A DNA stretch of 64,000 nucleotides, from assembly GCF_039614715.1 (NCBI RefSeq), contig NZ_CP154857.1, positions 4,154,001 through 4,218,000 on the forward strand. Reading direction: 5' to 3'. Source of the DNA: Microbacterium sp. AZCO (lineage in GTDB: Bacteria > Actinomycetota > Actinomycetes > Actinomycetales > Microbacteriaceae). The notes under the pieces were generated by a model. It worked only from the letters and a program-made list of their open reading frames with translations. It ran no database searches and was not told the origin of the DNA. A program made the translations under genes and the position numbers. This document shows positions 33,713-52,160 of the stretch, piece after piece. The first letter of the stretch is position 1. Each line of letters opens with the position of its first letter.

Positions 33713-33717
33713 GAGGT

Positions 33718-33751
33718 GAGTGGATGCCTCGCCGCGGCGGGGCATCCACTC
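33718..33751 (+). terminator. First terminator after rpoC
   Basis: Stem GAGTGGATGCC / GGCATCCACTC enclosing a further GC-rich CGCCGCGGCG stem, 5 nt after the rpoC stop. The arms carry an inverted GGATGCC/GGCATCC pair, and CCCTTT follows. Confidence 0.8.
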
Positions 33752-33761
33752 AGACCCTTTC

Positions 33762-33791
33762 CGAAGGCCCCGGCTCGCGCCGGGGCCTTCG
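33762..33791 (+). terminator. Second terminator after rpoC
   Basis: Stem CGAAGGCCCCGG / CCGGGGCCTTCG with a short loop, 10 nt after the first hairpin. Tandem arrangement typical of highly expressed operons. Confidence 0.7.
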
Positions 33792-33860
33792 TCGTACCCG
33801 CCGGCCGCGCGCCGCGCGGGCGGTGTCGCCGGTGCCGCTTACCGTGGAGGGGGAGGGCGG

Positions 33861-34475: not shown

Positions 34476-34476
34476 G

Positions 34477-35091: not shown

Positions 35092-35221
35092 GGCGCTCAC
35101 CCTAGCCGCGCCGCGCCCGCGAATCCGCGGCGAATCGCCGCGGCATGCCTCCGCGGGCATGCCGGAGCCGCGCGCTACCCTCGCTGTGCGGGGACCGGTC
35201 CCGTGTGAGGAAGTGCATCCG

Positions 35222-36298: not shown

Positions 36299-36349
36299 GA
36301 GCGGCCTGACGAAGCGCTGAGCGTCCGGTCGCGCGGTCGCGCGCGGACG

Positions 36350-36355
36350 TATCGT
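36350..36355 (+). promoter_or_regulatory. -10 box of a leaderless promoter (TATCGT, 6 nt, GTG)
   Basis: TATCGT, then CGAAAG, then GTG 36362. This supports the GTG as the true start of the next gene. Confidence 0.55.
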
Positions 36356-36361
36356 CGAAAG

Positions 36362-36847
36362 GTGACGGCTGATCGTCCTCCCCAGCACGGGCACGTGCGC
36401 CCGGCGGTCGCCCTCGGATTGACGACCGCGGCGTTCGTCGCGCTCCTGATCTTCGGACTCGGGATGACGAGCCTCGTCCTGGACGAGGACGTGCTGTCGG
36501 TGCCGGGACTCGGGCAGGCGCCCGGCATCATGGGCACGATCTTCGCGACGGGCGGGTTCGCACTGTGCGTCGACGTGGGGACGCGGCATCCACACCCCTC
36601 CTACTGGCTCGCGGCGGTCACGACGCTCGTCGTCATGCTCGCGTATCCGCTCGGAGTCTGGTTCGGCGCCGTGGTGTCGGGCGCCGATGTGGCTGCCGCG
36701 ACCGGTGCGGCGGGCGGCTTCCTCACCTCGTGGTTCGGGGTCGTGGTGGCGGCATCCGCCCTCATCTGCTCGTGGAGCGCGGTGGCGCTCGTGCGCACCT
36801 CGGCGCGCCGGCCGCGGTGGCCGTGGGAGAACCCCGACGACGAGTAG
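36362..36847 (+). CDS. Small four-helix membrane protein
   Basis: 161 aa from GTG 36362. Four hydrophobic segments at about 15-38, 55-72, 80-104 and 113-142, ending in a basic/Trp-Pro tail (RRPRWPWENPDDE). No recognised motifs; similar small proteins of unknown function are common in Microbacteriaceae. It has its own leaderless-type start and lies between two other uncharacterised genes on the same strand. Confidence 0.7.
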   Translation: MTADRPPQHGHVRPAVALGLTTAAFVALLIFGLGMTSLVLDEDVLSVPGLGQAPGIMGTIFATGGFALCVDVGTRHPHPSYWLAAVTTLVVMLAYPLGVWFGAVVSGADVAAATGAAGGFLTSWFGVVVAASALICSWSAVALVRTSARRPRWPWENPDDE

Positions 36848-36881
36848 TCCGGAAAACCCGGCGGATCAGGCCTGTACCGGA

Positions 36882-36887
36882 TACCGT
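36882..36887 (+). promoter_or_regulatory. -10 box of a leaderless promoter (TACCGT, 7 nt, GTG)
   Basis: TACCGT, then TGACACC, then GTG 36895; no ribosome site. Confidence 0.5.
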
Positions 36888-36894
36888 TGACACC

Positions 36895-37551
36895 GTGGAG
36901 CGGTCGCTCGAGACCCAGGTCAGCCAGGCGGTGGACGCCTGGCTGAAATGGCTTCCCCGCTGGGAGCCCTCGACGCACCGGGGCCGGGTCGCTCCGTGCC
37001 GTCGCTGCTTCGGATCGCCCGTCCTGTCCGCGGCGGGTCTCGGCTCCGATGTGCCGCACGGCGTGCAGCACGGACTCTCGACCCGCATCAAGACGATCGT
37101 CGACCACTCGGTCGCGGAGTACACCGCGCGCAACCTGCCCATGCTGCAGGCGGAGCTCGACCAGCAGGCGGCCCGCAACCGCGCCCGCAGCTACCGTCCG
37201 TCCGAGGGGCTCGAGCCCGAGTACGAGGGTCTCCCGCTGGATCCCGAGCCGGTTCCCGGGGCGCCCTTCCTGTTCACGATCTCGGGGCTCGCGGAGGAGG
37301 TGGATGCCGACATCCCGGCCCTTCCGCCCCTGAGCGACGACGCGAAGGCGGCCCTCCGGCAGGAGGTCGGCCTCGCCGACGACTACGCCAACATGGTCGG
37401 CCGCGAGGTGTGCACGATCCTCCTGCACCATCGCCTGCGCATCCAGTCGGCGATCGGCCAGTACGTCGAGCCGCAGATCGAGGCGATGCTGCAGGAGCTC
37501 ACGCGCTCGCTCGACGCGCCGTTCGATCCGAACGATCCGCCGGCCGGCTGA
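36895..37551 (+). CDS. Conserved-looking cytoplasmic protein of unknown function
   Basis: 218 aa if GTG 36895 is the start; an upstream ATG at 36565 would overlap the previous gene in another frame. No membrane helix. Near the N-terminus, CRRCFGSPV could be half of a metal site, but no second Cys pair follows nearby. The middle is rich in acidic and proline residues (EPEYEGLPLDPEPVPGAPF) and the C-terminus is helical (REVCTILLHHRLRIQSAIGQ). It directly precedes the kinase locus on the same strand, 121 bp away. Confidence 0.65.
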   Translation: MERSLETQVSQAVDAWLKWLPRWEPSTHRGRVAPCRRCFGSPVLSAAGLGSDVPHGVQHGLSTRIKTIVDHSVAEYTARNLPMLQAELDQQAARNRARSYRPSEGLEPEYEGLPLDPEPVPGAPFLFTISGLAEEVDADIPALPPLSDDAKAALRQEVGLADDYANMVGREVCTILLHHRLRIQSAIGQYVEPQIEAMLQELTRSLDAPFDPNDPPAG

Positions 37552-37672: not shown

Positions 37673-38806
37673 ATGGCCACACGCCTTCCTTCGGCACCCC
37701 CGATCCTTCCGGGGCTGACCTACATCCGGCCGCTCGGCTCGGGCGGCTTCGCCGACGTGTTCCTCTACGAACAGGACATGCCGCGCCGCGATGTCGCGGT
37801 CAAGGTGCTGCCGAGCGACGTGCGCGACCCCGAGCTGCGGCGCATGTTCAACGCCGAGGCCGACGTGCTCGCGCACCTCTCGGCGCATCCCTCCATCGTC
37901 ACCGTCTACCAGGCCGGCATCTCGGCCGACGGCCGCCCGTACATCGTGATGGAGTACTGCCCCGGCTCGCTCGCGCAGCGCTACCGCATCGAGCGCCTGC
38001 CCGTGCCCGAGGTGCTCGAGATCGGCGTGCGCATGGCGAGCGCCCTCGAGTCGGCGCACCGCGCCGGCCTCGTGCACCGCGACGTGAAGCCCAGCAACAT
38101 CCTCGTGACGACGTTCGGGGCGCCGGTGCTCGCCGACTTCGGCATCTCGTCGTCGCTCTCGCGCGCGACCGCCGACGAGGTGCTGGCGATGTCGATCCCG
38201 TGGAGCGCGCCCGAGGTCGTCGCCGAGCAGACCGCCGGCACTGTCGCGAGCGAGATCTGGAGCCTCGGCGCGACCGTCTACTCCCTGCTCGCGGGGCACA
38301 GCCCGTTCGAGCGGCGCGAGCGCGGTCAGAACACCAAGGAGCAGCTCCGCCGCCGCATCGCGCGGGCGAGCTACACACCCATCGCCCGCACCGACGTGCC
38401 GCAGGCGCTGCAGGACGTGCTCGCGCAGGCCATGAGCCGCGATCCGGCCCGGCGCTACGCCTCGGCCCGGGAGTTCGCGGAGGCCCTCCGCGGCGTGCAG
38501 TCCGAGCTCGGCTTCCTGCCGACGGCGCTCGAAGTGCCCGTGGACGAGTGGGCGGCGGCATCCACTCCCGTCGACTTCGCCGACTCGACGATGCGCGGAG
38601 CGACGCGAAGCCACGTCGAGCACGCGGAGCGCCGCAAGACGAAGCCCGGCACGGGGGTCGCGTCGCTCGCGCGCGACGAGGACACCGAGATCTCGGCATC
38701 CCCTGTCGCACGTCGTCGTGTGCTGCCCTGGATCGTCGCGGGTGTGGCCGTCGTGGTCGCGCTCGGAGCCGTCGTCGTCGCCCTCGCCGTCACGGGGGTG
38801 CTCTGA
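37673..38806 (+). CDS. Membrane Ser/Thr protein kinase (PknB-like)
   Basis: 377 aa. Kinase domain ~17-275 with glycine loop LGSGGFADVFLY, catalytic Lys in VAVKVL, HRDVKPSN, DFGIS and APEVV. The activation segment has several Ser/Thr (SSSLSRATADEVLAMS). Juxtamembrane region ~285-345, then one helix near the C-terminus (WIVAGVAVVVALGAVVVALAV) with essentially no extracellular sensor, unlike PknB with PASTA domains. It starts a run of seven tightly spaced genes that ends with an FHA protein and a Thr-motif array, the expected reader and substrates. GAGGTCAGG lies before ATG 37673. Confidence 0.93.
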   Translation: MATRLPSAPPILPGLTYIRPLGSGGFADVFLYEQDMPRRDVAVKVLPSDVRDPELRRMFNAEADVLAHLSAHPSIVTVYQAGISADGRPYIVMEYCPGSLAQRYRIERLPVPEVLEIGVRMASALESAHRAGLVHRDVKPSNILVTTFGAPVLADFGISSSLSRATADEVLAMSIPWSAPEVVAEQTAGTVASEIWSLGATVYSLLAGHSPFERRERGQNTKEQLRRRIARASYTPIARTDVPQALQDVLAQAMSRDPARRYASAREFAEALRGVQSELGFLPTALEVPVDEWAAASTPVDFADSTMRGATRSHVEHAERRKTKPGTGVASLARDEDTEISASPVARRRVLPWIVAGVAVVVALGAVVVALAVTGVL

Positions 38807-38807
38807 C

Positions 38808-41800
38808 ATGCGGCGCCGAACGATGGCCGGCATCGCTGCGGCGGTGGCGGCAGGCGCCCTCGTCGTCGTCGCGAGCGTCGTCTGGCCCGGCCTGGACGCG
38901 CAGGAGACGCCCGACGTCGACACCTCGGTGTGGGCGCTGCAGACGGCCGACGGACGCCGCTACGCCCGCGTGAACACGAGCGTCGGCGAGCTCGACACCG
39001 TGCGGAGCATCAGCAACCCGAGCGAGGTGGCCGAGACCTCGGAGGGCGCGTTCCTCTTCTCGGACAGCTACAGCAAGCTGACGAAGATCGACGCGTCGAT
39101 GCCGGTCGATCTCGACGAGGAGTCGCTGCGCGCCTCGCCCTCGACGCCCGCGGGAACGACCGACGTCGCCACGGCGGGCGACTTCGTGGCGTACCGCACG
39201 GACTCGGGCGCCGTGTTCGTGGGGCGCCTGTCGTCGGGGGAGTCGACACAGCTCGACCCGTTCCCCTCCGACGCGGAGGACGCCCCGCAGTACACGGCCG
39301 ACGCGATCGCGGTCGACGCGCGCGGCATGCTCTTCAGCTACTCCCGCGCCGACGCATCCGTTCTCCGCTACGACATCCCCTCGTCGAAGGTGAGCGGGCG
39401 GGACCCGCTGGCGGTGGACGGGCTCGCGACTCCCGCCATCACGGCCGCGGGCGACGCGTGGGCTGTCGTCGACGCCGACGACGGCGACGTCTGGCTGCGC
39501 GGTGGCGACAGCGCGGTGAAGGCCGGGACGACGGGCTCGGTCGTGGTGAGCGAGCCCGATCCGTCGGGCAGGTCCGTGTACCTCGCCGACGAGACGGGGC
39601 TCGTGAGCATCGCGGTCGACGGCTCGCGGGTGAAGACCGAGCTCGGCAACGGCACCGACTCCCTCGGCACACCGGCGCGCCCCATCGGGCACGACGGCGA
39701 GGAGTTCGCCGCGTGGCTTCCCCAGGGCACGGGCGACGGCGTGCTGTGGAGCTCGCGGTCGGGCCAGAAGCAGCTCGACTACGCCGCCGGCACGCTGAGC
39801 GACGACCGCCGGCCGCAGTTCGTCGCGACGGATGCCGCCGTCATCCTCAACGAGACCCGAAGCGGCTGGGTCTGGACGGTCCCCGACGGCGCCCTCGTCG
39901 CCTCGAGTCAGGACTGGTCGCTCGACGATCGCACCAACCCCGAGGCGCAGCCGAGCGACGAGCAGCTGACGATCATGATCGATCCCAAGCCGCCCGTCGC
40001 CGAGCCCGACAGCTTCGGCGTCCGCGCGGGAAGCCTCGTGACCCTCCCCGTGCTCATGAACGACCACGACCCGAACGAGGACGTGCTGTCGATCGACCCC
40101 ACGTCCGTCACGGGGCTCGACCCCGGCTTCGGGACTGTCTTCATCACCGACGACGGGCAGCGCCTCGCCGTCAGGGTCGCTCCGGGCGCGACCGGAGCGG
40201 CGACCTTCACGTATGCCGTGACCGACGGCACGAGCGAGGGCGGCCTCGTCTCCGAACCGACGACCGTGACGGTCGAGGTCGCCGGCGAGAGCGTCGAGTC
40301 GGCCCCCGCCTGGTGCGGAGTCGAGGGATGCCTCGTCCCGTGGCCAGAGCCCGAGGTCGCCCGGGGCGGCACGGTCACCGTGCCCGTGCTTCCTGGCTGG
40401 GTCGACCCCGAAGGCGACCCGCTGCTGCTCCTCTCGGTCGAGAACCGCTCCGGCGTCGGCAGCGTCGCCGCGACGCCCGCCGGTGACGTCGTCTACCAGC
40501 ACGCCGACGACGGCAGCGGCGGGGAGCAGCTCGTGGAGCTCGCCGTCACGGTCTCCGACACGCGCGGTCAGACGACGACGAAGTCGCTCATCGTGCGCGT
40601 CTCGCCCGAGCCGAAACTGGCCGTGCAGTCCTTCGCCGTCGTCGACACCATCGACGCGGGCCTGACCGTCGACGTCGCGCCGCATGTGACGGGCACGGCG
40701 GGTGCGCTGTCGCTCGCGTCCGTCCGCGTCCTCGACGGAGCCACGGCGACCGCGACCGTCGTGGGCGGCACGACGGGATTCGACTTCACCGCTCGCAGCC
40801 CCGGCACGTTCCGGGTCGGCTTCACCGTGAGCGACGGGATCAGCGACGCCGACGGCACCGCCCGCATCACGATCCTCCCCGCCGACGCGCCCCCCGAGCT
40901 CGCGACGGCCCCCGTCATCGCCTTCGTGCATCCGCAGGAGGATGCCACCCTCGACGTCTTCGCGGCGGTCTCCAATCCGACGCGGCGCGTGCTGCTGCTG
41001 AGCGATGTCGTGGCGCACGCCGACGACGGCTCGTCCCTGTCGGTCGACGCCGTCGGCCAGAACTATCTGCGCGTGTCGGGGACGACCGCCTCGGGCGCGG
41101 CGGGGCGCCTCGGCACCGTCGGCTACACGATCAGCGACGGCACCCAGGACCGCGGGGCGAGCGTGCAGGGCGAGGCGACGGTCTACCTCCTCCCGCCCGC
41201 ACCCGAGCTCGCTCCCATCGCCGTGGACGACACGGTCGTCGTGCGCGCGGGGGAGCAGGTCGACATCCCGGTGCTCGACAACGACATCGCCCCGGCCGGC
41301 GGGCGTCCCACGCTCAACCCGGCATCCATCGTCTCGTCGACCGACTCGGCGCTCGCCTTCGCCTCCGGCGACACGCTGCGCTACCTCGCGCCGACCGAGC
41401 CGGGGGAGTACGGGGTCGAGTACTCCGTCTACACGACCGGCTCGCCCACCCTCGCCGACACCGCCGATGTGCGCATCCAGGTGCTGCCCGACGACGCCAA
41501 CCGGGCGCCCCTGCCCGAGACACTCGAGGGACGCGTGCTGAGCGGCCAGTCCACCGTCATCGAGTTCGACGGCTTCGGCATGGATCCCGACGGCGACGTC
41601 GTGACCCTCGACCGCATCGTGAGCCAGCCGAACAGCGGTGCCGCCACGATCTCTGCCGACGGCACGTCGATCCAGTACTCGAGCGTTCCGGGATACCGCG
41701 GGCAGGTGTCGTTCCGCTACCGCGTCGTCGACGCCTTCGGCGCCACCGGGGAGGGCACCGTGCGCATCGGCGTCCTCGACGGGCAGTCCAACCCGAGCCC

Positions 41801-44783
41801 CATCACCTTCACCGACTACGTGCAGGTGCAGGCGGGTGCCGACAGCACGATCCGGGTCAGCCCGCTCTCCAACGACATCGACCCGACGATGGGGGGCCTG
41901 ACGCTCACCGGCGTCCGGCCGGACGTCACGGCGACCCTCGGCGACGGGTCGCCCAACCCCGAGTATCAGCGCCTCGACGGGCTCATCCAGTCGCAGTCCG
42001 ACGCGACAGTGCTCATCCGCGCCGGCACGGATCCCGCGACGATGTCCTTCCTCTACGACGTGGTCTCCAGCTCGGGCAACACCGGTCGAGGGCTCATCGT
42101 CGTGAAGGTCGTGCGTGAGAGCGTGCCCGACTTCCCCGTCGTCGCCGACACGGTGCTGACCGTCGAGAACCGCGACGACTTCGAGCGCGGCGTCGACGTG
42201 CTCGCGGGCAAGGCGACGTGGGCCGGCGGCGATGTGGCCGACCTCACCCTGAGCCTGTGGGGCGACCCCGACGGCGTCACGGTCAAGGGACGCAAGCTCA
42301 GCGGAGACCTGCCCGCGACGACCCGGATCATCCCCTTCGCCGTCACGGGTGAGGGCGCCTCGGGACCGGTCACGACCTACGCCTTCCTCCGCGTCCCCGG
42401 CGACGACGACCTGTCGCTCGCGCTCCGCAGCGGCGCGCAGACCCCCGAGGTCGACGAGCTGCAGTCCGTCACGTTCGACATGGCGTCGCTCGTCGCCCGG
42501 CCGCCGGGAAGCCGGCTCGAGGTGGGCGACGACGTGCGCGCCTCGGGCGCGCGCAGCGCGGCATCCTGTTCCCTCGAATCCGGCACCTCGGTGCGCTACG
42601 ACGCCGGCGAGGGGGCTCCGTGGGCGGATGCCTGCCAGGTGCCGGTTCGCATCGCCGGTCAGGACGACTGGACCTACCTGTCGGTGCCGATCGTCGTCCA
42701 CGCGCTCGAGCCGCAGCCCGAGCTGCATCCCGCGTCGCTCACCGTCGGCCCCGGCGAGACCGCCACGTTCGATCTCGAGCAGATGACGACGTGGCAGCTC
42801 CGCGAGGACTGGGAGGGGATCCAATACGCCGTCGACTATCCGGGCTCCGCCTTCGCCGTGTCGCTGTCCGGGCACACGCTCACGATCACTGGGGCCGACC
42901 GGGCGGTGCCCGGTGCGGAGGAGGCGGCGGTCGTGTCAGTCACGAGCCACAGCGCGGTCGCACCCGCCCGACTCATCCTGCGCGTCGGCGCGGCACCCTC
43001 GACCCTCCCGCAGGGCGGCTCGGCGGTGCAGCAGTGCTCCGAGGCATCCGGGTTCTCGTGCACGATCACCGTCGTCGGGGCACCGGGCGAGGTCAACCCG
43101 CTGCCGCACACGCCCCTCGAGGTGGTCGACGTGCGGCCGACCGGTGCCTGCGTCGGCGTGAGCTTCCAGGTCGCCTCGGCTTCCTCGGTCGTCGCGTCGT
43201 GGACGCAGGATGCCCCGGGCGCGACGTGCAGCGCGAGCTTCTCAGTGCAGGACGCCCAGGGCCGGCGTACCAACGCCGAACGCGACGGCCGGCTGCTCCT
43301 CGACCTGCAGGGCTTCCCCAAGACTCCGGCGAGCATCGCGCAGACGGCGTACGCGAACGGCACGGTGACGCTGCGCGTCGATCCCGGCGAGTCGCGCCTG
43401 GCCTACCCCGCCCTGACCGGCTTCGTCGTGCGGTCGGAGGGGCAGGAGGTCTCGCGCTGCGCGGCCGACGGCTCGTGCCAGCCCATCGCAGCGCCCAACG
43501 GCGAGCAGCGCACGTACGAGGCTGTCGCCGTCAATGCCGTGGGCGAGTCGCGCGGCAGCGTGAAGACCGTGGCATGGGCGTACAACCCGCCCGCCGCGCC
43601 GAGCACGATCACCGTGCGGCCGGTCGTGACGCAGGGCGACGGCGGCGTGGTCTCGCTCAGCATCGCGGGCGTCGACACGTCCCAGACGGGCGGCATCGAG
43701 ATCGCGAGCCCCAACGGCGAGACCTCGCGGGTGCCGGTGCGGCCCGGCCAGGACCGCCTCGACATCTCCTCGTACCGCGTCGGCACGAACTCGTCGTCGC
43801 CCATCACCGTCACGCCGTACTCGCGGTTCGAGCTGCCCCCCGGACTCACCGGCACGCAGTCGGGCTCCGCCGTCACGGTGTGGTCGAACGGCATCGGCGC
43901 TCCGCTCGACCCCGTGCTGACCCTCAGCTCCGACTCCAACGGCGACGGCACCTCGACGGTGACGGCGCGCGGCTCGGCGGCGCTCAACGGCGACGGGTCG
44001 AGCCTCCGCTACGGCATCGTGCGCGACGGCGAGCGCTGCGACACGACGGCCGACGGCGCGACGGCGGTCTTCACGGGCCTTCCCGACGGCGAGGAGTACC
44101 GCTTCACGCTGTGCGTCGACTCCTGGTACGACGGGAAGTCGTTCGGGCGCGTGACGGCGTCGCAGAGCGTCCGCGCCGTGCAGAGCGGGAAGGCGCCCAA
44201 GGGCTGGACGTTCCAGGTCGACGGCAGCCCGAACGTCGCCGGCAACCGCGCCGAGTGGGTCATCCGTTCTCAGCCGAGCTCGACCGAGAATCCACCCAAC
44301 CGCAACCACGCGGAGCTCACGGGATGGCCGACCACGGTCTTCGACCGCGACCCGGCCATCCAGGTGCGGTACGTGCACGACTGGTGGGGCACCGCGACGC
44401 CGTGGGCGACCGTCGTCCCCGCCGCCGGGAGCGCGCCCTTCCAGCTGCAGTCGACGTGGTGGGTGCCGTCGTGCGACGGCGGCGGCAAGCTCGTCGCGCG
44501 CGGCGACTCGTCGAACACCGCGAAGGGCAAGCCGACCGTCTCGTTCGGCAACGGAAACCTGACCTACTACGACAAGAACGGCAAGGTGCTGCCGTACACC
44601 GCCGACACGTGGGACGTGCCGCGCGGCGCCGTGCGCGTCGAGGGCATCCGCGTCACCGTGAGCTGGAGCGCCCAGGGCTGGAGCCTCGCCGACGCCACGA
44701 GCACGTTCGGCGCCGACTGCACGCCGAACAGTCCGCCGGACCCGACGCCGGAGCCCACCCCCACTCCGACGCCCACCCCCTGA
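38808..44783 (+). CDS. Giant exported Ig-like/fibronectin-like repeat protein
   Basis: 1991 aa from ATG 38808, one base after the kinase stop. A short basic N-terminus (MRRRTM) and one membrane helix (~8-26) act as an uncleaved anchor or signal. Residues ~30-390 look like a beta-propeller. Residues ~393-1490 hold repeated Ig/cadherin-like modules (PPVAEPDSFGVRAGS, VLMNDHDPNED, VAVDDTVVVRAGEQVDIPV). From ~1500, fibronectin III-like modules (SIAQTAYANGTVTLRVDP) follow. The end is a PEPTPTPTPTP tail with no sortase signal or C-terminal helix. It probably reaches through the cell wall and may be the machine's outer sensor or scaffold. Confidence 0.88.
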   Translation: MRRRTMAGIAAAVAAGALVVVASVVWPGLDAQETPDVDTSVWALQTADGRRYARVNTSVGELDTVRSISNPSEVAETSEGAFLFSDSYSKLTKIDASMPVDLDEESLRASPSTPAGTTDVATAGDFVAYRTDSGAVFVGRLSSGESTQLDPFPSDAEDAPQYTADAIAVDARGMLFSYSRADASVLRYDIPSSKVSGRDPLAVDGLATPAITAAGDAWAVVDADDGDVWLRGGDSAVKAGTTGSVVVSEPDPSGRSVYLADETGLVSIAVDGSRVKTELGNGTDSLGTPARPIGHDGEEFAAWLPQGTGDGVLWSSRSGQKQLDYAAGTLSDDRRPQFVATDAAVILNETRSGWVWTVPDGALVASSQDWSLDDRTNPEAQPSDEQLTIMIDPKPPVAEPDSFGVRAGSLVTLPVLMNDHDPNEDVLSIDPTSVTGLDPGFGTVFITDDGQRLAVRVAPGATGAATFTYAVTDGTSEGGLVSEPTTVTVEVAGESVESAPAWCGVEGCLVPWPEPEVARGGTVTVPVLPGWVDPEGDPLLLLSVENRSGVGSVAATPAGDVVYQHADDGSGGEQLVELAVTVSDTRGQTTTKSLIVRVSPEPKLAVQSFAVVDTIDAGLTVDVAPHVTGTAGALSLASVRVLDGATATATVVGGTTGFDFTARSPGTFRVGFTVSDGISDADGTARITILPADAPPELATAPVIAFVHPQEDATLDVFAAVSNPTRRVLLLSDVVAHADDGSSLSVDAVGQNYLRVSGTTASGAAGRLGTVGYTISDGTQDRGASVQGEATVYLLPPAPELAPIAVDDTVVVRAGEQVDIPVLDNDIAPAGGRPTLNPASIVSSTDSALAFASGDTLRYLAPTEPGEYGVEYSVYTTGSPTLADTADVRIQVLPDDANRAPLPETLEGRVLSGQSTVIEFDGFGMDPDGDVVTLDRIVSQPNSGAATISADGTSIQYSSVPGYRGQVSFRYRVVDAFGATGEGTVRIGVLDGQSNPSPITFTDYVQVQAGADSTIRVSPLSNDIDPTMGGLTLTGVRPDVTATLGDGSPNPEYQRLDGLIQSQSDATVLIRAGTDPATMSFLYDVVSSSGNTGRGLIVVKVVRESVPDFPVVADTVLTVENRDDFERGVDVLAGKATWAGGDVADLTLSLWGDPDGVTVKGRKLSGDLPATTRIIPFAVTGEGASGPVTTYAFLRVPGDDDLSLALRSGAQTPEVDELQSVTFDMASLVARPPGSRLEVGDDVRASGARSAASCSLESGTSVRYDAGEGAPWADACQVPVRIAGQDDWTYLSVPIVVHALEPQPELHPASLTVGPGETATFDLEQMTTWQLREDWEGIQYAVDYPGSAFAVSLSGHTLTITGADRAVPGAEEAAVVSVTSHSAVAPARLILRVGAAPSTLPQGGSAVQQCSEASGFSCTITVVGAPGEVNPLPHTPLEVVDVRPTGACVGVSFQVASASSVVASWTQDAPGATCSASFSVQDAQGRRTNAERDGRLLLDLQGFPKTPASIAQTAYANGTVTLRVDPGESRLAYPALTGFVVRSEGQEVSRCAADGSCQPIAAPNGEQRTYEAVAVNAVGESRGSVKTVAWAYNPPAAPSTITVRPVVTQGDGGVVSLSIAGVDTSQTGGIEIASPNGETSRVPVRPGQDRLDISSYRVGTNSSSPITVTPYSRFELPPGLTGTQSGSAVTVWSNGIGAPLDPVLTLSSDSNGDGTSTVTARGSAALNGDGSSLRYGIVRDGERCDTTADGATAVFTGLPDGEEYRFTLCVDSWYDGKSFGRVTASQSVRAVQSGKAPKGWTFQVDGSPNVAGNRAEWVIRSQPSSTENPPNRNHAELTGWPTTVFDRDPAIQVRYVHDWWGTATPWATVVPAAGSAPFQLQSTWWVPSCDGGGKLVARGDSSNTAKGKPTVSFGNGNLTYYDKNGKVLPYTADTWDVPRGAVRVEGIRVTVSWSAQGWSLADATSTFGADCTPNSPPDPTPEPTPTPTPTP

Positions 44784-44814
44784 CTCTCCCCCCGACCCCC
44801 GAAGGACATCCCCC

Positions 44815-45780
44815 ATGACCCTGACGCAGGAGCAGGCGACCTGGTTCGCGCAGACGTTCGCCCAGATCTCCGACAACGTCGAGCGCGCCATCCTGGGCAA
44901 GCGCCACGTCGTCGAGCTGGTGCTGACGGCGATGCTCAGCGACGGGCACGTGCTGCTCGAGGACGTCCCCGGGACTGGGAAGACGTCGCTCGCGCGCGCG
45001 ATGGCGCAGTCCGTGCAGGGGACGAACACGCGCATCCAGTTCACGCCCGACCTGCTGCCGGGAGACATCACCGGCATCACGGTCTACGACCAGAAGGCCG
45101 GGCAGTTCGAGTTCCACGCGGGACCCGTCTTCGCCAACATCGTGCTGGCCGACGAGATCAACCGCGCGAGCCCCAAGACGCAGTCGGCGCTCCTCGAGGT
45201 CATGGAGGAGGGGCACGTCACGATCGACGGCGTCTCGCGCGACGTGGGTGTGCCGTTCCTCGTACTCGCGACGCAGAACCCCGTCGAGCAGGCCGGCACC
45301 TACCGTCTGCCCGAGGCGCAGCTCGACCGCTTCATGATGCGGACGTCGCTCGGCTACCCCGACCACGCGTCCACCGTGCGCATCCTCGACGGCGCCGCCG
45401 TCGCGACGGAGGAGCTCGCGCCGATCATCACCCCGCAGGCGCTCGTGGGCATGGCCGATCTCGCGCAGGAGGTGTACGTCGACGCGCTCGTGCTCGACTA
45501 CATCGCGCGGCTCGTGGATGCCACCCGCTCCGCGGACGAGGTGCGACTGGGGGTCAGCATCCGGGGCGCCCTCTCGCTCACGCACGCGACCCGCACCCGC
45601 GCCGCCTCCCAGGGGCGCACCTACGCGACGCCCGACGACGTCAAGGCGCTCGCCGTGCCCGTGCTCTCGCACCGCCTCATACTCCACCCCGAGGCGGAGT
45701 TCGACGGCGTGACGCAGGAGGCCGTCATCGGCCAGGTGCTGCTCGACATCGCTCCGCCCACCCGCCGCGAGGCCGTATGA
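44815..45780 (+). CDS. MoxR-family AAA+ ATPase
   Basis: 321 aa. Walker A EDVPGTGKTSL, Walker B NIVLADEINRASPKTQSALLEVMEE, sensor 1 LATQNPVEQAGTYRLPEAQLDRF, and the lid domain after ~230. MoxR ATPases act as chaperones or remodelers for partners containing VWA or DUF58 domains; the DUF58 gene is next and overlaps by 4 nt (ATGA). Ribosome site CGAAGGA before ATG 44815. Cytoplasmic hexamer expected. Confidence 0.95.
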   Translation: MTLTQEQATWFAQTFAQISDNVERAILGKRHVVELVLTAMLSDGHVLLEDVPGTGKTSLARAMAQSVQGTNTRIQFTPDLLPGDITGITVYDQKAGQFEFHAGPVFANIVLADEINRASPKTQSALLEVMEEGHVTIDGVSRDVGVPFLVLATQNPVEQAGTYRLPEAQLDRFMMRTSLGYPDHASTVRILDGAAVATEELAPIITPQALVGMADLAQEVYVDALVLDYIARLVDATRSADEVRLGVSIRGALSLTHATRTRAASQGRTYATPDDVKALAVPVLSHRLILHPEAEFDGVTQEAVIGQVLLDIAPPTRREAV

Positions 45781-47144
45781 GTCTGACCGAGTCCCGCCTC
45801 ACCCGCACCTCGACCTCGACGGGGTCGGGGACGGGCGCGACGACGCGCACCGTGGCGCCGCTCCGGCGGGGCCGCGCGCTCGTGCGCGCCGTCGTGTGGA
45901 CCACGCAGGCCTCCCGGGCCTTCGGCGCCGGGGTCGCGGCGGCTGCGACGTGGGCGTCGCGGACCGTGCGGCCCGCGGGCGTGCTGGTCGCGGCGGCCGC
46001 GACGGGGGGACTCGTGCTGGCGCTCGCCTTCGGCTGGGTGGAGTGGATGGTCGCGGGTGCGATCTCGGTGCTCCTCCTCGCGATGGCCGTGCCGTTCCTC
46101 TTCGGCGCCCGCTCGTACGACGTCGACCTGAGCCTCGCGCACGAGCGCGTCGTCGCGGGCCAGGGCGTCGTCGGCGAGATCGTCGTGCGCAACGACAGCA
46201 CCCGCACGGCCCTGCCGGGACGCATCGACATCCCCGTCGGCGAGGGGCTCGTCGAGTTCGGCGTCCCGCTGCTGCGTCCCGGTCACACGATCGGGCAGCC
46301 CCTCGACATCCCCGACCTGCGTCGCGGGATCGTGACGGTCGGCCCCGCCACGACGGTGCGGAGCGACCCCATCGGTCTGCTCCGGCGCGAGCACGCCTTC
46401 GAAGACGTCCACGAGCTCTACGTGCACCCCCGCACGATCGGGGTCCCCTCGACGAGCGCGGGCCTCATCCGCGACCTGGAGGGCGCGCCGACGCGGCGCC
46501 TCGTCGACGCCGACATGTCGTTCCACGCCATCCGCGAGTACGCGCCCGGCGACTCGTGGCGGCAGGTGCACTGGAAGTCGACCGCCAAGACGGGCCAGCT
46601 CATGGTGCGCCAGTACGAGGAGTCGCGCCGCTCGCGCATGGCCATCGTGCTCGCGATCGCCGAGGCGGAGTACCTGGATGCCGACGAGTTCGAGCTCGCG
46701 GTCAGCTCGGCGGCATCCCTCGGGCTCCGCGCCGTGCGCGACGCGCGCGATGTCGACATCGTCGTCGGGTCGGAGGTGCCGCGCGTCGTGCGCGGGCGCC
46801 TCCGCGCCGTGCAGCACCTGCCCGCGGCATCCCCCCGCACTCTCCTCGACGGGTTCAGCGGCATCGACCTGCTCGAGAACACGATGCCGATCGAGGATGT
46901 GTGCCGCCTCGCGGCCGAGGCCAACGAGCGCCTCTCCGTCGCCGTCATCGTCACGGGCTCCCGCGTGTCGCTCACCCGCCTGCAGCAGGCGGCGCTCGGC
47001 TTCCCCGCCGACACGGCCGTCATCGCCGTGATCTGCGACGAGCGGGCCCACCCGCGCATGCGGTCGCTGGCGGGCCTCAGCGTGCTCACCGTGGGGACGC
47101 TCGACGACCTGTCGGGACTCCTCCTGCGAGGGGCCGCCTCGTGA
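45777..47144 (+). CDS. DUF58 membrane protein
   Basis: 455 aa. Two membrane helices at ~65-105 (VLVAAAATGGLVLALAFGW and MVAGAISVLLLAMAVPFLF), then a beta domain, then the DUF58 signature AIREYAPGDSWRQVHWKSTAKTGQLMVRQYE (residues ~245-275, wrapped in a VWA-like fold). Partner of the MoxR ATPase by gene overlap and by family precedent. It overlaps the following gene by 4 nt (GTGA). Inferred role: assembly or quality control of the exported complex. Confidence 0.92.
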   Translation: MSLTESRLTRTSTSTGSGTGATTRTVAPLRRGRALVRAVVWTTQASRAFGAGVAAAATWASRTVRPAGVLVAAAATGGLVLALAFGWVEWMVAGAISVLLLAMAVPFLFGARSYDVDLSLAHERVVAGQGVVGEIVVRNDSTRTALPGRIDIPVGEGLVEFGVPLLRPGHTIGQPLDIPDLRRGIVTVGPATTVRSDPIGLLRREHAFEDVHELYVHPRTIGVPSTSAGLIRDLEGAPTRRLVDADMSFHAIREYAPGDSWRQVHWKSTAKTGQLMVRQYEESRRSRMAIVLAIAEAEYLDADEFELAVSSAASLGLRAVRDARDVDIVVGSEVPRVVRGRLRAVQHLPAASPRTLLDGFSGIDLLENTMPIEDVCRLAAEANERLSVAVIVTGSRVSLTRLQQAALGFPADTAVIAVICDERAHPRMRSLAGLSVLTVGTLDDLSGLLLRGAAS

Positions 47145-49654
47145 CCGCGACAGTCCTCACGAGTCCGCGCCGCACGTCGTCGGAGGCCGTCCCGCGGCTC
47201 GTCGCGGGCTCGATCTACACCGCCGCGATGGTCGCGATCGCGGCGCTCGCCGCCTGGCCCGTCTACCGGTCGGGCTGGTTCCTGCTCCTCGTGGGCGCCT
47301 CCGTCGTGCTGGCGACGGGCATCGCCGTCGTCTCGCGTCTTCGCCGCTGGGACGGATGGATGACGACGGCCGCCGTCACCGCCGCGTTCCTCATCTTCGG
47401 GGTCCCGCTCGCGGTCCCCTCGCGCCTCGGCGCCCCGCTCGAGCTGCTCCGCGGACTCGGCGACCTCCTCGCGGGCACGGTCTTCGCGTGGAAGGACCTC
47501 GTCACCGTGGACCTCCCGGTCGGGACGTACCGCAACCTCCTCGTGCCCGCGCTCATCGTCTTCCTCGTCGGCACGTGCGCGACGCTCGCCCTCTCGTGGC
47601 GCGACGACCGCGCCGCGTACGCCGCGGCGCCCGTTGGCATCGCCATGACGTCGTTCGGCCTCTTCTTCGGCCGTCCGGTCACGAGCTCGCCGATCGAGCT
47701 CGGGCCGCTCACGGTGTACGCGCCGGTCGAGACGGCGATCGGCATCTCCGCGCTCGTCGCGAGCGTGCTCTGGCTCGCGTGGCGCAACCGCGACGAGCGT
47801 GTGCGTGCGCTGCAGCGCGCCGCCGTCTCGAGCGGCGTGCGCATCTCGCGGCGCCCGAGCCGTGCCGACCGTCGCCGGACGGCGCTCGGCGCCGGCATGC
47901 TCGCCCTGGCCGTCGTCGCGGGGGCGGCGGTCGTGCCGTGGGCCGCGCGCGGCGCGGAGCGCGACGTCCTGCGCTCCGCCGTGGGCCCCGAGGTCGACCT
48001 CGCGGCCGAGGTCAGCCCGCTCACGACCTACCGCACCCGCTTCGAGGGCGCCGGCGCCGACGACGTGCTCTTCCGCGTCGCCGCGCTCGAGGGCTCGCCC
48101 TCCCGCATCCGCCTCGCGACCCTCGACAGCTACGACGGCGAGGTCTTCCGCTCGGGCGGTGGCGACGCGACCGGCGAAGCGCGCTTCGTGCGCGTGCCCT
48201 CGACGCTCGACGCCGGCGCCGGAGACCCCGTGCGGCTCACCGTCTCGATCGAAGACCTGCGGGGGATCTGGATGCCGACCTCCGGCCGCCTCTCGTCCGT
48301 CACCTTCGACGGCGACCGGTCCTCGAGCCTCGCCGACAGCTTCTACTACAGCCAGTCCGCCGCGGCGGGCGTCGAGACGACGGGCGATAACGGCCTCGCC
48401 GCCGGGGACTCCTACGAGCTGCAGGCCGTCGACCCGCGCCTTCCCGCCCTCGGCTCGCTCCAGGCGCCGGGCGGCGTCGACGACTCCGTCTCGGCGCCCG
48501 ACAGCCTCACGACGTGGGTGGATCGCCACACGACCGGCTCCGGGGGAGCGGCGCTCGAGGAGCTCGTACGCCTCCTGCGCGAGCGCGGGTACCTGAGCCA
48601 CGCCCTCTCCGTCGGCCAGGACACGCCCTCGTGGATGGCGGACCTCGCCGGCTACACCTTCCAGCCGAGCGCCTCGGGCCACTCGCTGGCCCGCATCGAC
48701 ACGCTGTTCACCCGGCTGCTCGAGCGCGAGACCGATCCGCGGGCCGAGGCTTCCGGGAACTACGTCGCCGCGGTGGGCGACGACGAGCAGTTCGCCGTCG
48801 CCGTCGCGCTCATCGCCCGCGAGCTCGGCTTCCCCTCCCGGGTCGTCGTGGGTGCCAGACTCACGTCGTCGGACGCCGACCTCCCCGCCTGCGACGCGGG
48901 AGTGTGCCGCGCCCGTGACCTCTCGGCGTGGACGGAGGTCCAGGATGCCTCCGGCCTGTGGGTGCCCGTCGACGTCACGCCGCAGCACGAGGCGTCGCCG
49001 AGCCTCGACGTCACCGAGCAGCGGGACCCCGAGAACGTCACGGAGGTGCGCCCCGACTCCGTCGAGGAGGTCGTGCCGCCGGACCCCGTTCAGGAGGACT
49101 CCGGCAACGACGACTCCACGCCGAAGGACACCGGCCCCGACCTCGCGTGGCTGTGGCCGACGCTCCGCGTCGCGGGCATCGTCACCGCGATCCTCGTCCT
49201 CGCCCTCGGCCCCTTCATCGCCGTCGTCGCGGCGAAGGGCTTCCGCCGCCGGGGCCGTCGCACGCAAGGCCCGGCCGTCGCGCGCATCGCCGGCGGCTGG
49301 GACGAGTACGTCGACGCGGCGATCGACGCCGGGCGCGGTGCTCCCAAGGCCTCGACGCGGGCCGAGCTCGCGGCCGGCTTCGGCACAGCATCCGGTGCCG
49401 CGCTCGCGGAAGGCGCCGACCGCGCCGTCTTCTCGGGCGGTGTCGCAACGATCTCCGAGGCGGAGGAGTTCTGGCGGATCGTCGACACGGAGCGCCGCGG
49501 GCTGTCCGCCGAAGCCGGGTTCTGGCGTCGCCTCCGCGCGGCCGTATCGTTGAGATCGTTCATGCGCCACCTGGCTCCGACGGCGGGGCTGAGGGAGCGC
49601 ACCGCCGAAAGGGGGAAGCGCCGCGCCGCACGGCGTGAGCGCACATCGCCATGA
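47141..49654 (+). CDS. TgpA-like membrane protein with degenerate transglutaminase domain
   Basis: 837 aa from GTG 47141, overlapping the DUF58 gene. About six N-terminal helices (~20-255), an extracytoplasmic domain, one helix (~675-700) and a basic cytoplasmic tail. The transglutaminase core reads GDDEQFAVAVALIARELGFPSRVVVGA and LSAWTEV...VPVDVTP. The catalytic Cys of the usual GDCEQFA is Asp548 and the His of HAWTEV is Ser595; only Asp611 remains. It is therefore probably a non-catalytic binding domain. The tail (~700-837) is cytoplasmic and could meet the MoxR or FHA partners. Confidence 0.88.
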   Translation: MTATVLTSPRRTSSEAVPRLVAGSIYTAAMVAIAALAAWPVYRSGWFLLLVGASVVLATGIAVVSRLRRWDGWMTTAAVTAAFLIFGVPLAVPSRLGAPLELLRGLGDLLAGTVFAWKDLVTVDLPVGTYRNLLVPALIVFLVGTCATLALSWRDDRAAYAAAPVGIAMTSFGLFFGRPVTSSPIELGPLTVYAPVETAIGISALVASVLWLAWRNRDERVRALQRAAVSSGVRISRRPSRADRRRTALGAGMLALAVVAGAAVVPWAARGAERDVLRSAVGPEVDLAAEVSPLTTYRTRFEGAGADDVLFRVAALEGSPSRIRLATLDSYDGEVFRSGGGDATGEARFVRVPSTLDAGAGDPVRLTVSIEDLRGIWMPTSGRLSSVTFDGDRSSSLADSFYYSQSAAAGVETTGDNGLAAGDSYELQAVDPRLPALGSLQAPGGVDDSVSAPDSLTTWVDRHTTGSGGAALEELVRLLRERGYLSHALSVGQDTPSWMADLAGYTFQPSASGHSLARIDTLFTRLLERETDPRAEASGNYVAAVGDDEQFAVAVALIARELGFPSRVVVGARLTSSDADLPACDAGVCRARDLSAWTEVQDASGLWVPVDVTPQHEASPSLDVTEQRDPENVTEVRPDSVEEVVPPDPVQEDSGNDDSTPKDTGPDLAWLWPTLRVAGIVTAILVLALGPFIAVVAAKGFRRRGRRTQGPAVARIAGGWDEYVDAAIDAGRGAPKASTRAELAAGFGTASGAALAEGADRAVFSGGVATISEAEEFWRIVDTERRGLSAEAGFWRRLRAAVSLRSFMRHLAPTAGLRERTAERGKRRAARRERTSP

Positions 49655-51405
49655 CCAACCTCGAAATGTGGAACACCGTCACGCTCGGCACGCTGTCGCT
49701 CGTGACGTTCGTGCTCTTCTACGCGTGGACGGCGATCGCCCTCGGTGCGGTCTTCCGCAAGAGCGGCGAGTCGGCGTGGAAGGCGTGGGTCCCCGTCCTC
49801 AACATCGTCGTCTTCCTGAGGGTCGCGGGGCTCTCGGGGTGGCTCGTCCTGCTCTTCCTCCTCCCGTTCGCAGGCTTCGTCGTGACCGTCATCGCGTCGT
49901 ACCGCATCAACGTCGCCTTCGGGCACGGCGCCGGGATGACCGTGCTCGCAGCGCTCCTCTTCCCGATCTGGGCGACCGTGCTCGGCTTCGGCCCGGATCG
50001 CTGGCTCGGTCGCGAAGAGGCCGCGCGCGGCCCCGTCCGCGCGACCTACGCCGACGTCGCGCCGCCGCCCCCGCTGCCCGATGCGGTGGCTGCGCCTTCC
50101 CCGTCGGCTGGGCCGTTCACGCCCCCGCCCGCCTACGGGCGCCCGGCTCCTGCCACGGCAGGCTGGACACCTCCTCCGCCGATCCCGCCCACGCGGGCGG
50201 AGTCCGGCGCGCCCGTGGCGGCCGGGTCGGCCTGGCCGGCGCCGGCGTCGTCCGTGCCCGACGCGCCGTCGGCCCCGCCGAGGCAGGCTTCGGCAGCGTC
50301 CGACGCGCCGTCGGCCCCGCCTGCGCCTGCGCCGGTGATGTCCGTCCCGCCCTCGGTTCGGCCCGCGCCGGCGACGCCCTCGGACTGGCCGGCGCCCGCC
50401 CCCAGCCCCGCCGTCCGCGCGGCGCCGATCGTCGCCGCGCCGGCCGCGCCGACGGCCGAGCGGGCGTCCACCGGTCGGGGCCCGCTCTCGGCCGTCCCGT
50501 CCTCTCCCGTGCCGCCTCCCGCTTCCATGACCGAACCCATCGCGGTCTCCGCCGCGCCGCTGGCGCCCGACGCCGACGAGGAGGACGCCGACGAGGCATC
50601 CTTCCCGCCCATCGCCCGTCGCTCGGCGCCGGCCGACGCGCCCTCGTGGGACGTCCCCGAGTCCGATGAGCCGTCCTGGGACTTCGACTTCGGCCCCGCG
50701 TCCGCGACGAGCGAGGTGACGGATGCCGTGAGCGGCGCGCCCGCCCCCGTCTCCGCCGCCTCCCGCAGCGCCCGCCCGGTCGACGGCCCTGTGCTGCCCG
50801 AGGACGATTCCCTCGTGCGTCCGCCCGTCACGCGCGTGCCCGCCGCGCCGGCTCCAGCCGCCTCGCGTGAGCCGTGGGCGCCCGCCGCATCCCCCGTGCC
50901 CGGCGAGGGGGAGGCGTTCCCCGAGAGCTCGGGCCCCGTCTCGGCCATCGCGGGCGCGCCCGACGCCGGGATGCCCCGCTCCGCGCTCTCGTCGGTGTCG
51001 GCCCTGCACACGCAGCCGCACATCCCCGAGGAGGAGGAGCTCGAGGCGACCATCGTCGCGCGCCGCAAGCGCACGGCATGGACCCTCACGAGCCCCTCGG
51101 GCGCGCGCGTGCCGCTGACCGCCGAGACGGTCATCCTGGGACGTCGCCCGTCCATCGATCCGGAGTTCCCCGGTGCGCAGCTCGTGTCGCTCGACGACGA
51201 CACCCGCACCGTCTCGAAGACGCACGCGCGTCTCGAGCTGCGCGACGACCGCTGGTACATCACGGACCTCGCCTCCACCAACGGCGTGCTCTTCACGACG
51301 CTCATGGGCACCGAGGTCGCCGCGACGCCCGGAGAGGCGACGGAGGCCGGCGAGCGGTTCCTGCTCGGCGACGCGGAGGTGTCGCTCAGCCGGAGCGACG
51401 GGTGA
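49651..51405 (+). CDS. Membrane FHA-domain protein
   Basis: 584 aa, overlapping the preceding gene (ATGA). The first ~120 residues have three to four helices (LSLVTFVLFYAWTAIALGAVF, VLLFLLPFAGFVVTVIA) like DUF5684. A long Pro/Ala-rich linker follows (~125-455). Then a Thr motif, ELEATIVARR (Thr467), and a C-terminal FHA domain (~475-580) with GRRP, SKTHARLEL and STNGV, the phosphothreonine-binding residues. The Thr motif just before an FHA domain recalls GarA, where phosphorylation leads to self-binding. Likely reader of phosphorylation by the kinase at 37673. Confidence 0.9.
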   Translation: MTNLEMWNTVTLGTLSLVTFVLFYAWTAIALGAVFRKSGESAWKAWVPVLNIVVFLRVAGLSGWLVLLFLLPFAGFVVTVIASYRINVAFGHGAGMTVLAALLFPIWATVLGFGPDRWLGREEAARGPVRATYADVAPPPPLPDAVAAPSPSAGPFTPPPAYGRPAPATAGWTPPPPIPPTRAESGAPVAAGSAWPAPASSVPDAPSAPPRQASAASDAPSAPPAPAPVMSVPPSVRPAPATPSDWPAPAPSPAVRAAPIVAAPAAPTAERASTGRGPLSAVPSSPVPPPASMTEPIAVSAAPLAPDADEEDADEASFPPIARRSAPADAPSWDVPESDEPSWDFDFGPASATSEVTDAVSGAPAPVSAASRSARPVDGPVLPEDDSLVRPPVTRVPAAPAPAASREPWAPAASPVPGEGEAFPESSGPVSAIAGAPDAGMPRSALSSVSALHTQPHIPEEEELEATIVARRKRTAWTLTSPSGARVPLTAETVILGRRPSIDPEFPGAQLVSLDDDTRTVSKTHARLELRDDRWYITDLASTNGVLFTTLMGTEVAATPGEATEAGERFLLGDAEVSLSRSDG

Positions 51406-52160
51406 CCGGCGGCGACGACGCGGAGCCCGACGACAGCACCATCCGCGTTCCGCGGGGTGACCACGACGGCGGCATGATCGGCGAACCGCAGGGCGAGGTC
51501 GACGCGGCGACGGTGCGGGTTCCGCGGCGCGAGCCCGACGACAGCACGATCCGCGTTCCGCGGGGCGGGGTCGACGAGAACACCGTCCGCACGCCCGCAG
51601 AGGGCGAGGTCGACGAGGAGACGGTCCGCGCTTTGCGCGGCGAGGTCGACGAGGCGACGCGCGTCTCCCGTCGGTCCGGCGGGGGAGTGGATGCCGCAGA
51701 CCCCGGGCCGACGGAGCCGAGCGCCGTCACGGCGCCGCCCGGTCCCCGGCGGACCCCGTCCACCGGCGAGCCCGAGCCCGGAGAAGCCGAGCCCGAGGAC
51801 GGGTCGACCGTCGTCGCCCGCCGGGAGTCGCGGCGCCGCGCCGCGCGTCACGACGAGGGCGCGGCATCCCCGGACCGTCCGGCCGCCGCAACGGCACCCG
51901 GCCTCCCCGCGATCGGCCGCGTCGCGCAGGCGCCTGAGGCGGAGCGCCCTGCCTACTCACCCCGTCCTCCGCAGCCCGTGACGGCGAGCCGGTGCCCGCC
52001 CGCGGTCCGCGACCCGCAGCTTCCCGCCGACACCGCTGCCGGCGAGTCGCTCGCCCGGCGGCGCGCGCGCCGGCGCACGACGATCGCCGTGGTCGCGGCA
52101 TCCATCGTCCTCATCGCCGCCGTCGCCGTGCTCGTCGCCCTGCTCACGACGGCGGGTTAG
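51402..52160 (+). CDS. Tail-anchored protein with tandem Thr phospho-acceptor-like motifs
   Basis: 252 aa from GTG 51402, overlapping the FHA gene. Residues 5-91 are tandem units of about 12 residues with the core (D/E)xxT(I/V)R: DDSTIRVPRG (Thr13, Thr49), DAATVRVPRR (Thr37), DENTVRTP (Thr61), DEETVRAL (Thr74), a degenerate DEATRVS (Thr86), and a later DGSTVVARR (Thr136). The rest is Pro/Ala-rich and disordered. A single helix lies at the C-terminus (~228-250), so the array faces the cytoplasm. Acidic residues before Thr and hydrophobic residues after match PknB-type sites and FHA ligands. I know no family name. Confidence 0.8.
   Translation: MTGGDDAEPDDSTIRVPRGDHDGGMIGEPQGEVDAATVRVPRREPDDSTIRVPRGGVDENTVRTPAEGEVDEETVRALRGEVDEATRVSRRSGGGVDAADPGPTEPSAVTAPPGPRRTPSTGEPEPGEAEPEDGSTVVARRESRRRAARHDEGAASPDRPAAATAPGLPAIGRVAQAPEAERPAYSPRPPQPVTASRCPPAVRDPQLPADTAAGESLARRRARRRTTIAVVAASIVLIAAVAVLVALLTTAG
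51420..51670 (+). repeat. Tandem repeats coding the Thr-motif array
   Basis: Units of about 36 bp; the phrase GACGACAGCAC(C/G)ATCCGCGTT followed by CCGCGGGG occurs twice, 108 bp apart, with diverged copies between and after. The expansion looks internal to this gene. Confidence 0.75.

Follow-up and report, generated by a model that had tools for sequence, protein, structure and literature searches.

A probable PFNA-type envelope operon in Microbacterium with a pseudo-transglutaminase and a putative kinase-written, FHA-read scaffold

The locus described here is a group of seven genes of Microbacterium sp. AZCO, located in a stretch of 64,000 nucleotides (contig NZ_CP154857.1, positions 4,154,001 to 4,218,000) that is referred to as the window. 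The genes occupy positions 37673–52160 of the + strand, where an earlier note made from the letters of the sequence had placed them. They encode, in order, a Ser/Thr kinase, a giant protein with immunoglobulin (Ig) repeats, a MoxR-type ATPase, a DUF58 protein, a transglutaminase-like protein (TGM), a membrane protein with an FHA domain, and a protein with an array of threonine motifs (Table 1). The gap between the genes of the kinase and the giant protein is one nucleotide, and that between the genes of the giant protein and MoxR is 31 nucleotides; there is a four-nucleotide overlap at each of the junctions MoxR/DUF58, DUF58/TGM, TGM/FHA, and FHA/array. For the giant protein, the ATG at position 38808 is the most likely start, as the alternative longer open reading frame from 38718 starts within the kinase gene. 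The locus is flanked by rpoB-rpoC on one side and by rpsL-rpsG-fusA-tuf on the other.

Table 1 Genes of the locus and the predicted phosphorylation site, in window coordinates.
Feature	Position	Strand	Evidence
Ser/Thr kinase, 377 residues	37673..38806	+	Pkinase 3.9e-43 (Pfam); HRD and DFG motifs legible
Giant envelope protein, 1991 residues	38808..44783	+	Big_9 4e-33 (Pfam); AlphaFold; alignment with the protein of locus L213
MoxR-type AAA+ ATPase, 321 residues	44815..45780	+	AAA_3 8e-62, AAA_lid_2 6.4e-23 (Pfam)
DUF58 protein, 455 residues	45777..47144	+	DUF58 3.7e-10 (Pfam); alignment with relatives
Pseudo-transglutaminase TGM (TgpA-like), 837 residues, GTG start at 47141	47141..49654	+	Transglut_core 2.8e-9 (Pfam)
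Membrane FHA protein, 584 residues	49651..51405	+	DUF5684 3.4e-17, FHA 5.1e-7 (Pfam)
Thr467 of the FHA protein (ELEATIVARRK), predicted phosphosite	51049..51051	+	30 residues N-terminal of the FHA GR motif
Thr-array protein, 252 residues, GTG start at 51402	51402..52160	+	5 copies of the motif by regular expression; C-terminal transmembrane helix

Judged by sequence, the five genes of the core (kinase, giant protein, MoxR, DUF58, and TGM) make up the PFNA gene set known from Bifidobacterium, for which the order pkb2, fn3, aaa-atp, duf58, tgm has been described; some species have prpC, a hypothetical gene, and fha as well (PMC8430577, PMC6803598). The earlier note named MoxR-DUF58-TgpA clusters as known but missed that such a core with a kinase and a giant Ig protein has already been published as PFNA. 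The PFNA genes of B. longum are co-transcribed, and Pkb2 phosphorylates the MoxR protein (PMC8430577). One paper likens the mycobacterial moxR operon to PFNA. The gene set has been called "found only in bifidobacteria" in a paper from 2023 and has been tied to host immunity (PMC10688814, PMC8430577), two points on which published studies of PFNA build. As far as the gene set can be recognized by sequence, the restriction to Bifidobacterium does not hold.

A search with TGM identified relatives in 70 of the 80 genomes of the window's family, its own genome counted, and in 40 of 198 genomes across the phylum, many of them as weak matches; none was found in the 12 listed genomes of the same class outside the order. 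Within the order, 123 of 198 genomes have a match to DUF58 at E ≤ 1e-15, although some of these matches are probably other DUF58 paralogues. An alignment scan of named records with DUF58 matched at least 591 stretches, of which 585 were confirmed and the best 80 were kept. These best 80 are mostly from Microbacterium, and Cryobacterium, Demequina, Leifsonia, Cellulomonas, Leucobacter, Pseudoclavibacter, Scrofimicrobium, and others are also represented; the closest DUF58 relatives among them are 70–80% identical and again mostly from Microbacterium. None of the 80 records is titled Bifidobacterium, and all 72 that are long enough contain the core in full order.

The conservation of the cluster was quantified in 163 loci: 72 from named records, 72 from the family and phylum searches, and 19 from the order search. 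They were taken from 174 distinct loci left after two duplicates had been dropped, the others being too short upstream; since the loci were chosen for having TGM or DUF58, the figures describe the cluster and not all genomes. The genes for the Ig protein, MoxR, DUF58, and TGM follow each other in this order on one strand in 160 of the 163 loci, so that the gene order extends well past close strains, the point on which the earlier note had made its reading depend. The kinase gene is positioned upstream of the core in 151 loci and after TGM in seven, and lies within the cluster in 158; FHA is present in 144 loci and PP2C in 97. The PFNA core set is also present in eleven genomes of one family (L213–L223), which, on the basis of their gene set and of WSxPS, WSxDS, or WSxES motifs in four of the eleven, which resemble the motifs published for FN3, are probably Bifidobacteriaceae.

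The relatives fall into two arrangements. Type B loci have PP2C upstream of the kinase, and type A loci, to which the window belongs, have FHA after TGM; the classification omits loci with neither the upstream PP2C nor the downstream FHA, as well as repeated DUF58 rows. Both types can share one genome, as in the pairs L056/L118, L062/L120, and L067/L123. They differ in the kinase. That of the window has a cytosolic kinase domain and a C-terminal transmembrane helix, with 0 residues after the last hydrophobic stretch. It is a membrane kinase, as had been proposed, but the proposal missed that it has no extracytoplasmic part. The median number of residues after the transmembrane helix is 0 in 73 type A loci and 87 in 41 type B loci, with L066 (helix not found) and L081 (catalytic motif not found) set aside.

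The array protein of the window contains five copies of the motif D[DE]xT[IV]xxxR by regular expression and seven by eye, compared with a mean of 0.18 and a maximum of 3 in 5000 shuffled sequences, which bears out the threonine array noticed before. None of the other open reading frames of the window (387 scanned) has more than three copies. The protein belongs to no Pfam family and ends in a C-terminal transmembrane helix, a tail anchor. When an array is called significant at two or more copies with p ≤ 0.01 by shuffling, 40 of 76 testable type A loci, including the window, have a significant array of D[DE]xT[VIL]xxxR, compared with 1 of 41 type B loci; three of the 79 type A loci were too short for the test. 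All 40 array-positive type A loci have the C-terminal transmembrane helix, whereas the positive type B locus lacks it. The shuffle test and the contrast between the types rule out that the array is low-complexity sequence arising by chance. In this sample, the array occurs mostly in Microbacteriaceae and only sporadically elsewhere, as in Scrofimicrobium (L200).

In 37 arrays with 201 copies, Asp or Glu is found at position −2 in 89% and at −3 in 75% of the copies, and Arg at +5 in 94%; the pattern itself fixes Val, Leu, or Ile at +1 and permits Arg at +4 or +5. Repeats are more alike within an array (identity 0.57) than between arrays (0.29), and individual loci have repeats of their own, for example DDETVVTGR (L059), DERTVIVDR (L062), and EEATVFVAR (L068). 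The number of copies ranges from 3 to 15 among arrays with at least three.

A similar motif is present in the FHA protein, which consists of an N-terminal DUF5684 domain, a linker rich in Pro and Ala, and a C-terminal FHA domain. The linker motif occurs in 61 of 121 FHA-bearing loci, and its distribution again differs between types A (47 of 73) and B (4 of 33). It usually lies 30 or 31 residues N-terminal of the GR of the FHA domain, in some loci 18. The alignments of the TGM, DUF58, and FHA families were built from loci chosen for diversity. In 38 aligned FHA proteins, from the window and 37 chosen named loci, the linker threonine is conserved in at least 90% of sequences, unlike most of the linker, and residues G63, R64, S88, H91, and N110 of the FHA domain (numbering of the aligned segment) are invariant. 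AlphaFold predicts the FHA fold with confidence and the linker with low confidence, and the fold matches include OdhI and GarA; a sequence search of the PDB with the FHA segment, as with TGM, found no relative at E ≤ 0.01.

The linker motif resembles the array of its own locus more than those of other loci. In the 27 of the 121 FHA-bearing loci that were compared, the similarity is 11.74 to the own array and 9.49 to other arrays, a difference reached in 0 of 20000 permutations. For the free positions +2 to +4 alone, the values are 3.71 and 1.52 (0 of 20000). After clustering of DUF58 at 70% identity, nine loci remain, and the difference is reached in 68 of 20000 permutations. A resemblance to the own array is expected if both sites have the same writing kinase and the same reading FHA domain. 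The motif comparisons thus agree with the logic of writer, reader, and multi-site substrate put forward in the earlier note, in which phosphorylation by the kinase is a step that we infer from sequence.

Alternatively, the array could serve the kinase as a decoy or as a buffer of phosphate, or it could be a disordered spacer with repeats that drift by unequal exchange. The variation in copy number and sequence and the homogenization of repeats within a locus are what such a function would allow. We nevertheless consider it unlikely, because the resemblance to the linker site of the same locus, the restriction to type A, and the tail anchor suggest read-out by the FHA domain.

TGM is, by its sequence, a conserved pseudoenzyme. 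The protein of the window has Asp in the column of the catalytic Cys and Ser in place of His, and keeps the Asp; the catalytic triad is thus incomplete, and the fold is non-catalytic, as had been read from the window sequence. Its match to TgpA_N is just below the Pfam cut-off. The Cys is absent from all 76 rows of an alignment of the window and 75 loci, which leaves out L112 (TGM not found), from all 81 rows for the window and 80 named loci, and from all 20 further loci, the three sets overlapping in species. The His is kept in 5 and the Asp in 69 of the 76 rows, and the His in 2 of the 20 further loci. In the eleven probable Bifidobacteriaceae, the Cys is replaced by Ser, the His is absent, and the Asp is replaced by Tyr (ten rows) or His (one row). 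Residues G, E, and Q next to the catalytic column are invariant in 25 sequences. By contrast, a TgpA-like paralogue from the same genome (L233), which serves as a control, keeps the Cys and His and has Glu at the Asp position. In view of the loss of the Cys in all rows, set against the Cys-bearing paralogue, the reading of TGM as an enzyme was rejected, and an enzymatic function should not be assumed for a gene because it is named tgm.

These results bear on the view that nothing more than an ordinary MoxR-DUF58-TgpA module is present, its transglutaminase or protease being active, and that the kinase and FHA genes are its neighbors by accident. The MoxR, DUF58, and Transglut_core domains are all present, and neighborhoods of mrp, DUF58, and transglutaminase genes have been described (PMC6803598, citing Wong and Houry 2012). 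Without the Cys in any TGM row examined, and with the kinase inside the cluster in nearly all loci, such a module is improbable.

The giant protein has an N-terminal transmembrane helix, a predicted β-propeller at approximately residues 40–370, Big_9/Ig repeats, and a PT-rich tail. Its length, helix, and repeats agree with the exported Ig protein recognized before; the span across the wall that was ascribed to it is not borne out, and no wall-anchor motif was seen by eye, no dedicated test having been run. The AlphaFold model has a mean pLDDT of 84.5, and nearly all blocks of residues 41–370 are above 90. The fold matches in the PDB are to propellers in general, with TM-scores of 0.22–0.44 of the query, and include the extracellular domain of mycobacterial PknD. 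Because the kinase of the window has no part outside the cell, the modeled propeller is a candidate for its missing sensor. The protein aligns with that of L213, one of the probable Bifidobacteriaceae, at 25% identity over 1506 columns (6e-49), with the fn3 region included.

This alignment is consistent with the function proposed for PFNA of Bifidobacterium, a device for dialogue with the host in which the kinase and the giant FN3 protein sense and bind host cytokines. In B. longum, an FN3 fragment binds TNF-alpha, and TNF-alpha induces the system (PMC8430577, PMC10688814, PMC12607495). For the window, a role of this kind is highly improbable. Its giant protein has no fn3 match at E ≤ 0.5, whereas those of L213 and L217 do; residues ~1540–1600 align with the fn3 domain of L213, but the WSKPS of L213, which fits the WSxxS "cytokine receptor" motif of PFNA FN3 domains, is ESRGS in the window. 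The kinase is without the extracytoplasmic sensor. Moreover, the same gene order is common in Microbacterium, Cryobacterium, Demequina, and Cellulomonas, genera known mainly from soil, water, ice, and plants.

A MoxR-based system of biological conflict directed against phages can be given hardly any weight and was set aside: MoxR ATPases do occur in predicted conflict systems (PMC7159879, PMC12067865) and the kinase scores against PADLOC kinase models, but these matches look like generic kinase homology, the rest of the six proteins searched (all but the giant protein) gave only weak AAA matches for MoxR and none for DUF58, TGM, FHA, and the array, the locus lies between rpoBC and rpsL-rpsG-fusA-tuf, and relatives of TGM occur in 70 of the 80 genera that make up the family sample. 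The interval that separates the kinase gene from rpoC (33716–37551, approximately 4 kb) contains one weak DUF3558 match below the cut-off; the open reading frames tried there are otherwise without a Pfam match.

A phosphatase was reported absent from the cluster, which is correct for the window, yet PP2C is common in related loci, and three PP2C_2 matches lie elsewhere in the genome. No PP2C was matched in L133–L162, the loci nearest to the window, some of whose contigs are short. In a PP2C tree, the types are mostly in separate groups, with three type B sequences within the type A group. A PrpC-like gene of the window's genome, away from the cluster (G000:C1:586109-586732; L002, L113), belongs to the type B group; the bootstrap of the tree is not settled, and the two other PP2Cs of the genome are long branches. 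It comes directly behind a gene for an ABC transporter, and a gene for an amino-acid permease lies ~3 kb further on. A simple relocation of the cluster PP2C within the genome was rejected, as this gene groups with type B and not type A. The gene may be left over from a type B cluster that was lost; the TGM search gave only one match in the genome. Beyond the window, the PP2C frames of L216, L218, and L213 have C-terminal ends with array-like sites (DDATVET, GDATVETR, and EDATLQT), and by these motifs PP2C itself may be a target of phosphorylation there. In L214, L216, and L218, the gene after PP2C, ~5 kb downstream of the DUF58 start, encodes a product of ~260 residues that is not a Thr array and that starts with the shared sequence DPxxLAKVxYENPEFGANVAAHPRAYPGLLRWIA.

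The reading that we prefer is that the locus is a PFNA-type envelope operon with a kinase-written, FHA-read scaffold, the activity of which would be set by threonine phosphorylation; we give it a probability of about 0.55. The kinase would phosphorylate the linker threonine of the FHA protein and the threonines of the array. The phosphorylated linker threonine could then occupy its own FHA domain, as in GarA and OdhI, or that of a neighbor, while the phosphorylated array, presenting several sites at the membrane, would compete for FHA proteins and gather several of them. The FHA membrane protein would thereby cluster beside the assembly of MoxR, DUF58, and TGM, switching it on or off. The MoxR ATPase would remodel the complex of DUF58 and TGM, in which TGM may serve as a binding fold, and this complex would assemble or position the giant protein. 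A PP2C, encoded in the cluster of many relatives and elsewhere in the genome of the window, would reset the system. Given a kinase that lacks its own sensor, the signal may enter via the propeller of the giant protein. A fuller version for type A loci can be offered only tentatively: a two-part phospho-scaffold in which the tail-anchored array co-evolves in sequence with the single latch site beside the FHA domain, and a sensorless kinase at the same membrane drives the formation of multivalent clusters of array and FHA that gate a machine of pseudo-transglutaminase and MoxR, which builds the giant surface protein, perhaps with the propeller as the sensor. A two-part phospho-scaffold of this kind is not described in the papers found.

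Several observations weigh against the preferred reading. The pattern used was derived from the array of the window and its relatives, so that the counts lean towards it, and with this pattern 36 of the 76 testable type A loci have no significant array; 19 of these 36 have a last open reading frame with a transmembrane tail and few or no sites. No array was found in the 20 loci L213–L232 at a threshold of four copies, where motif matches are limited to open reading frames of giant proteins and to a frame of 1633 residues in L230 with unlike sites, which were not counted as arrays; none was seen in the seventh gene of the probable Bifidobacteriaceae loci either. The array is therefore not essential to the core machine. 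The linker motif is missing, by the pattern used, from 26 of 73 type A loci. Its resemblance to the array could come partly from shared ancestry: clustering of DUF58 at 60% identity leaves five loci, and the difference is then reached in 798 of 20000 permutations. The kinases of four type A loci (L101, L104, L106, and L129) have 78–105 residues outside, the cluster of the window contains no PP2C, and the idea of the propeller as a sensor has only position and fold to draw on.

If the cluster is common in free-living actinobacteria, a role in host immunity is at best a late use, and attention shifts to what the cluster did originally, which was probably envelope assembly. It may serve generally as a switch of the cell envelope and not as a device for host dialogue. 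The array and the FHA linker would form a phospho-code that can be tested, with the sites, reader, and writer in one operon and natural variants of motif and copy number. The core cluster is known, but its wide distribution, the dead TGM family, and the pair of array and latch were not found in the open-licence literature searched, in which nothing was found on the Thr array or DUF5684.

The closest known system is PFNA of Bifidobacterium, which shares the five core genes and their order with the window and has a giant protein of similar length; that of the window aligns over most of its own length with the protein of L213. The FHA gene occurs in both, and the link between the kinase and MoxR has been published for Bifidobacterium. 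However, the PFNA kinase has a variable extracytoplasmic sensory region, of which the window kinase has nothing. Of the accessory genes prpC, hypothetical, and fha, the window has FHA and lacks PP2C; the DUF5684 domain of the FHA protein and the additional gene for the Thr array belong to the window and not to published PFNA. In the PFNA literature, tgm figures as a transglutaminase-like enzyme, but the Cys is missing from all rows analyzed here. Canonical MoxR-DUF58-TgpA clusters have MoxR, DUF58, and a TgpA-like protein in tandem, as does the window, but the Cys and His kept by the paralogue L233 have been lost from the TGM of the window, and a kinase, a giant Ig protein, and FHA have been added.

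GarA and OdhI are small soluble regulators of 2-oxoglutarate metabolism. GarA has a kinase-controlled threonine motif, ETTS, N-terminal of its FHA domain (PMC12321487). The switch of GarA and OdhI thus has its threonine site on the same side of the FHA domain as the predicted phosphosite of the window, but in the window the FHA domain sits on a membrane protein and is accompanied by a separate array of like sites. Rv1747 has its sites and FHA domains in one protein. Kinases tune the multivalent interactions that cluster this ABC transporter (PMC8573418), a clustering of a membrane protein like that proposed here; in the window, by contrast, the sites are placed on a separate, tail-anchored protein encoded in an envelope operon.

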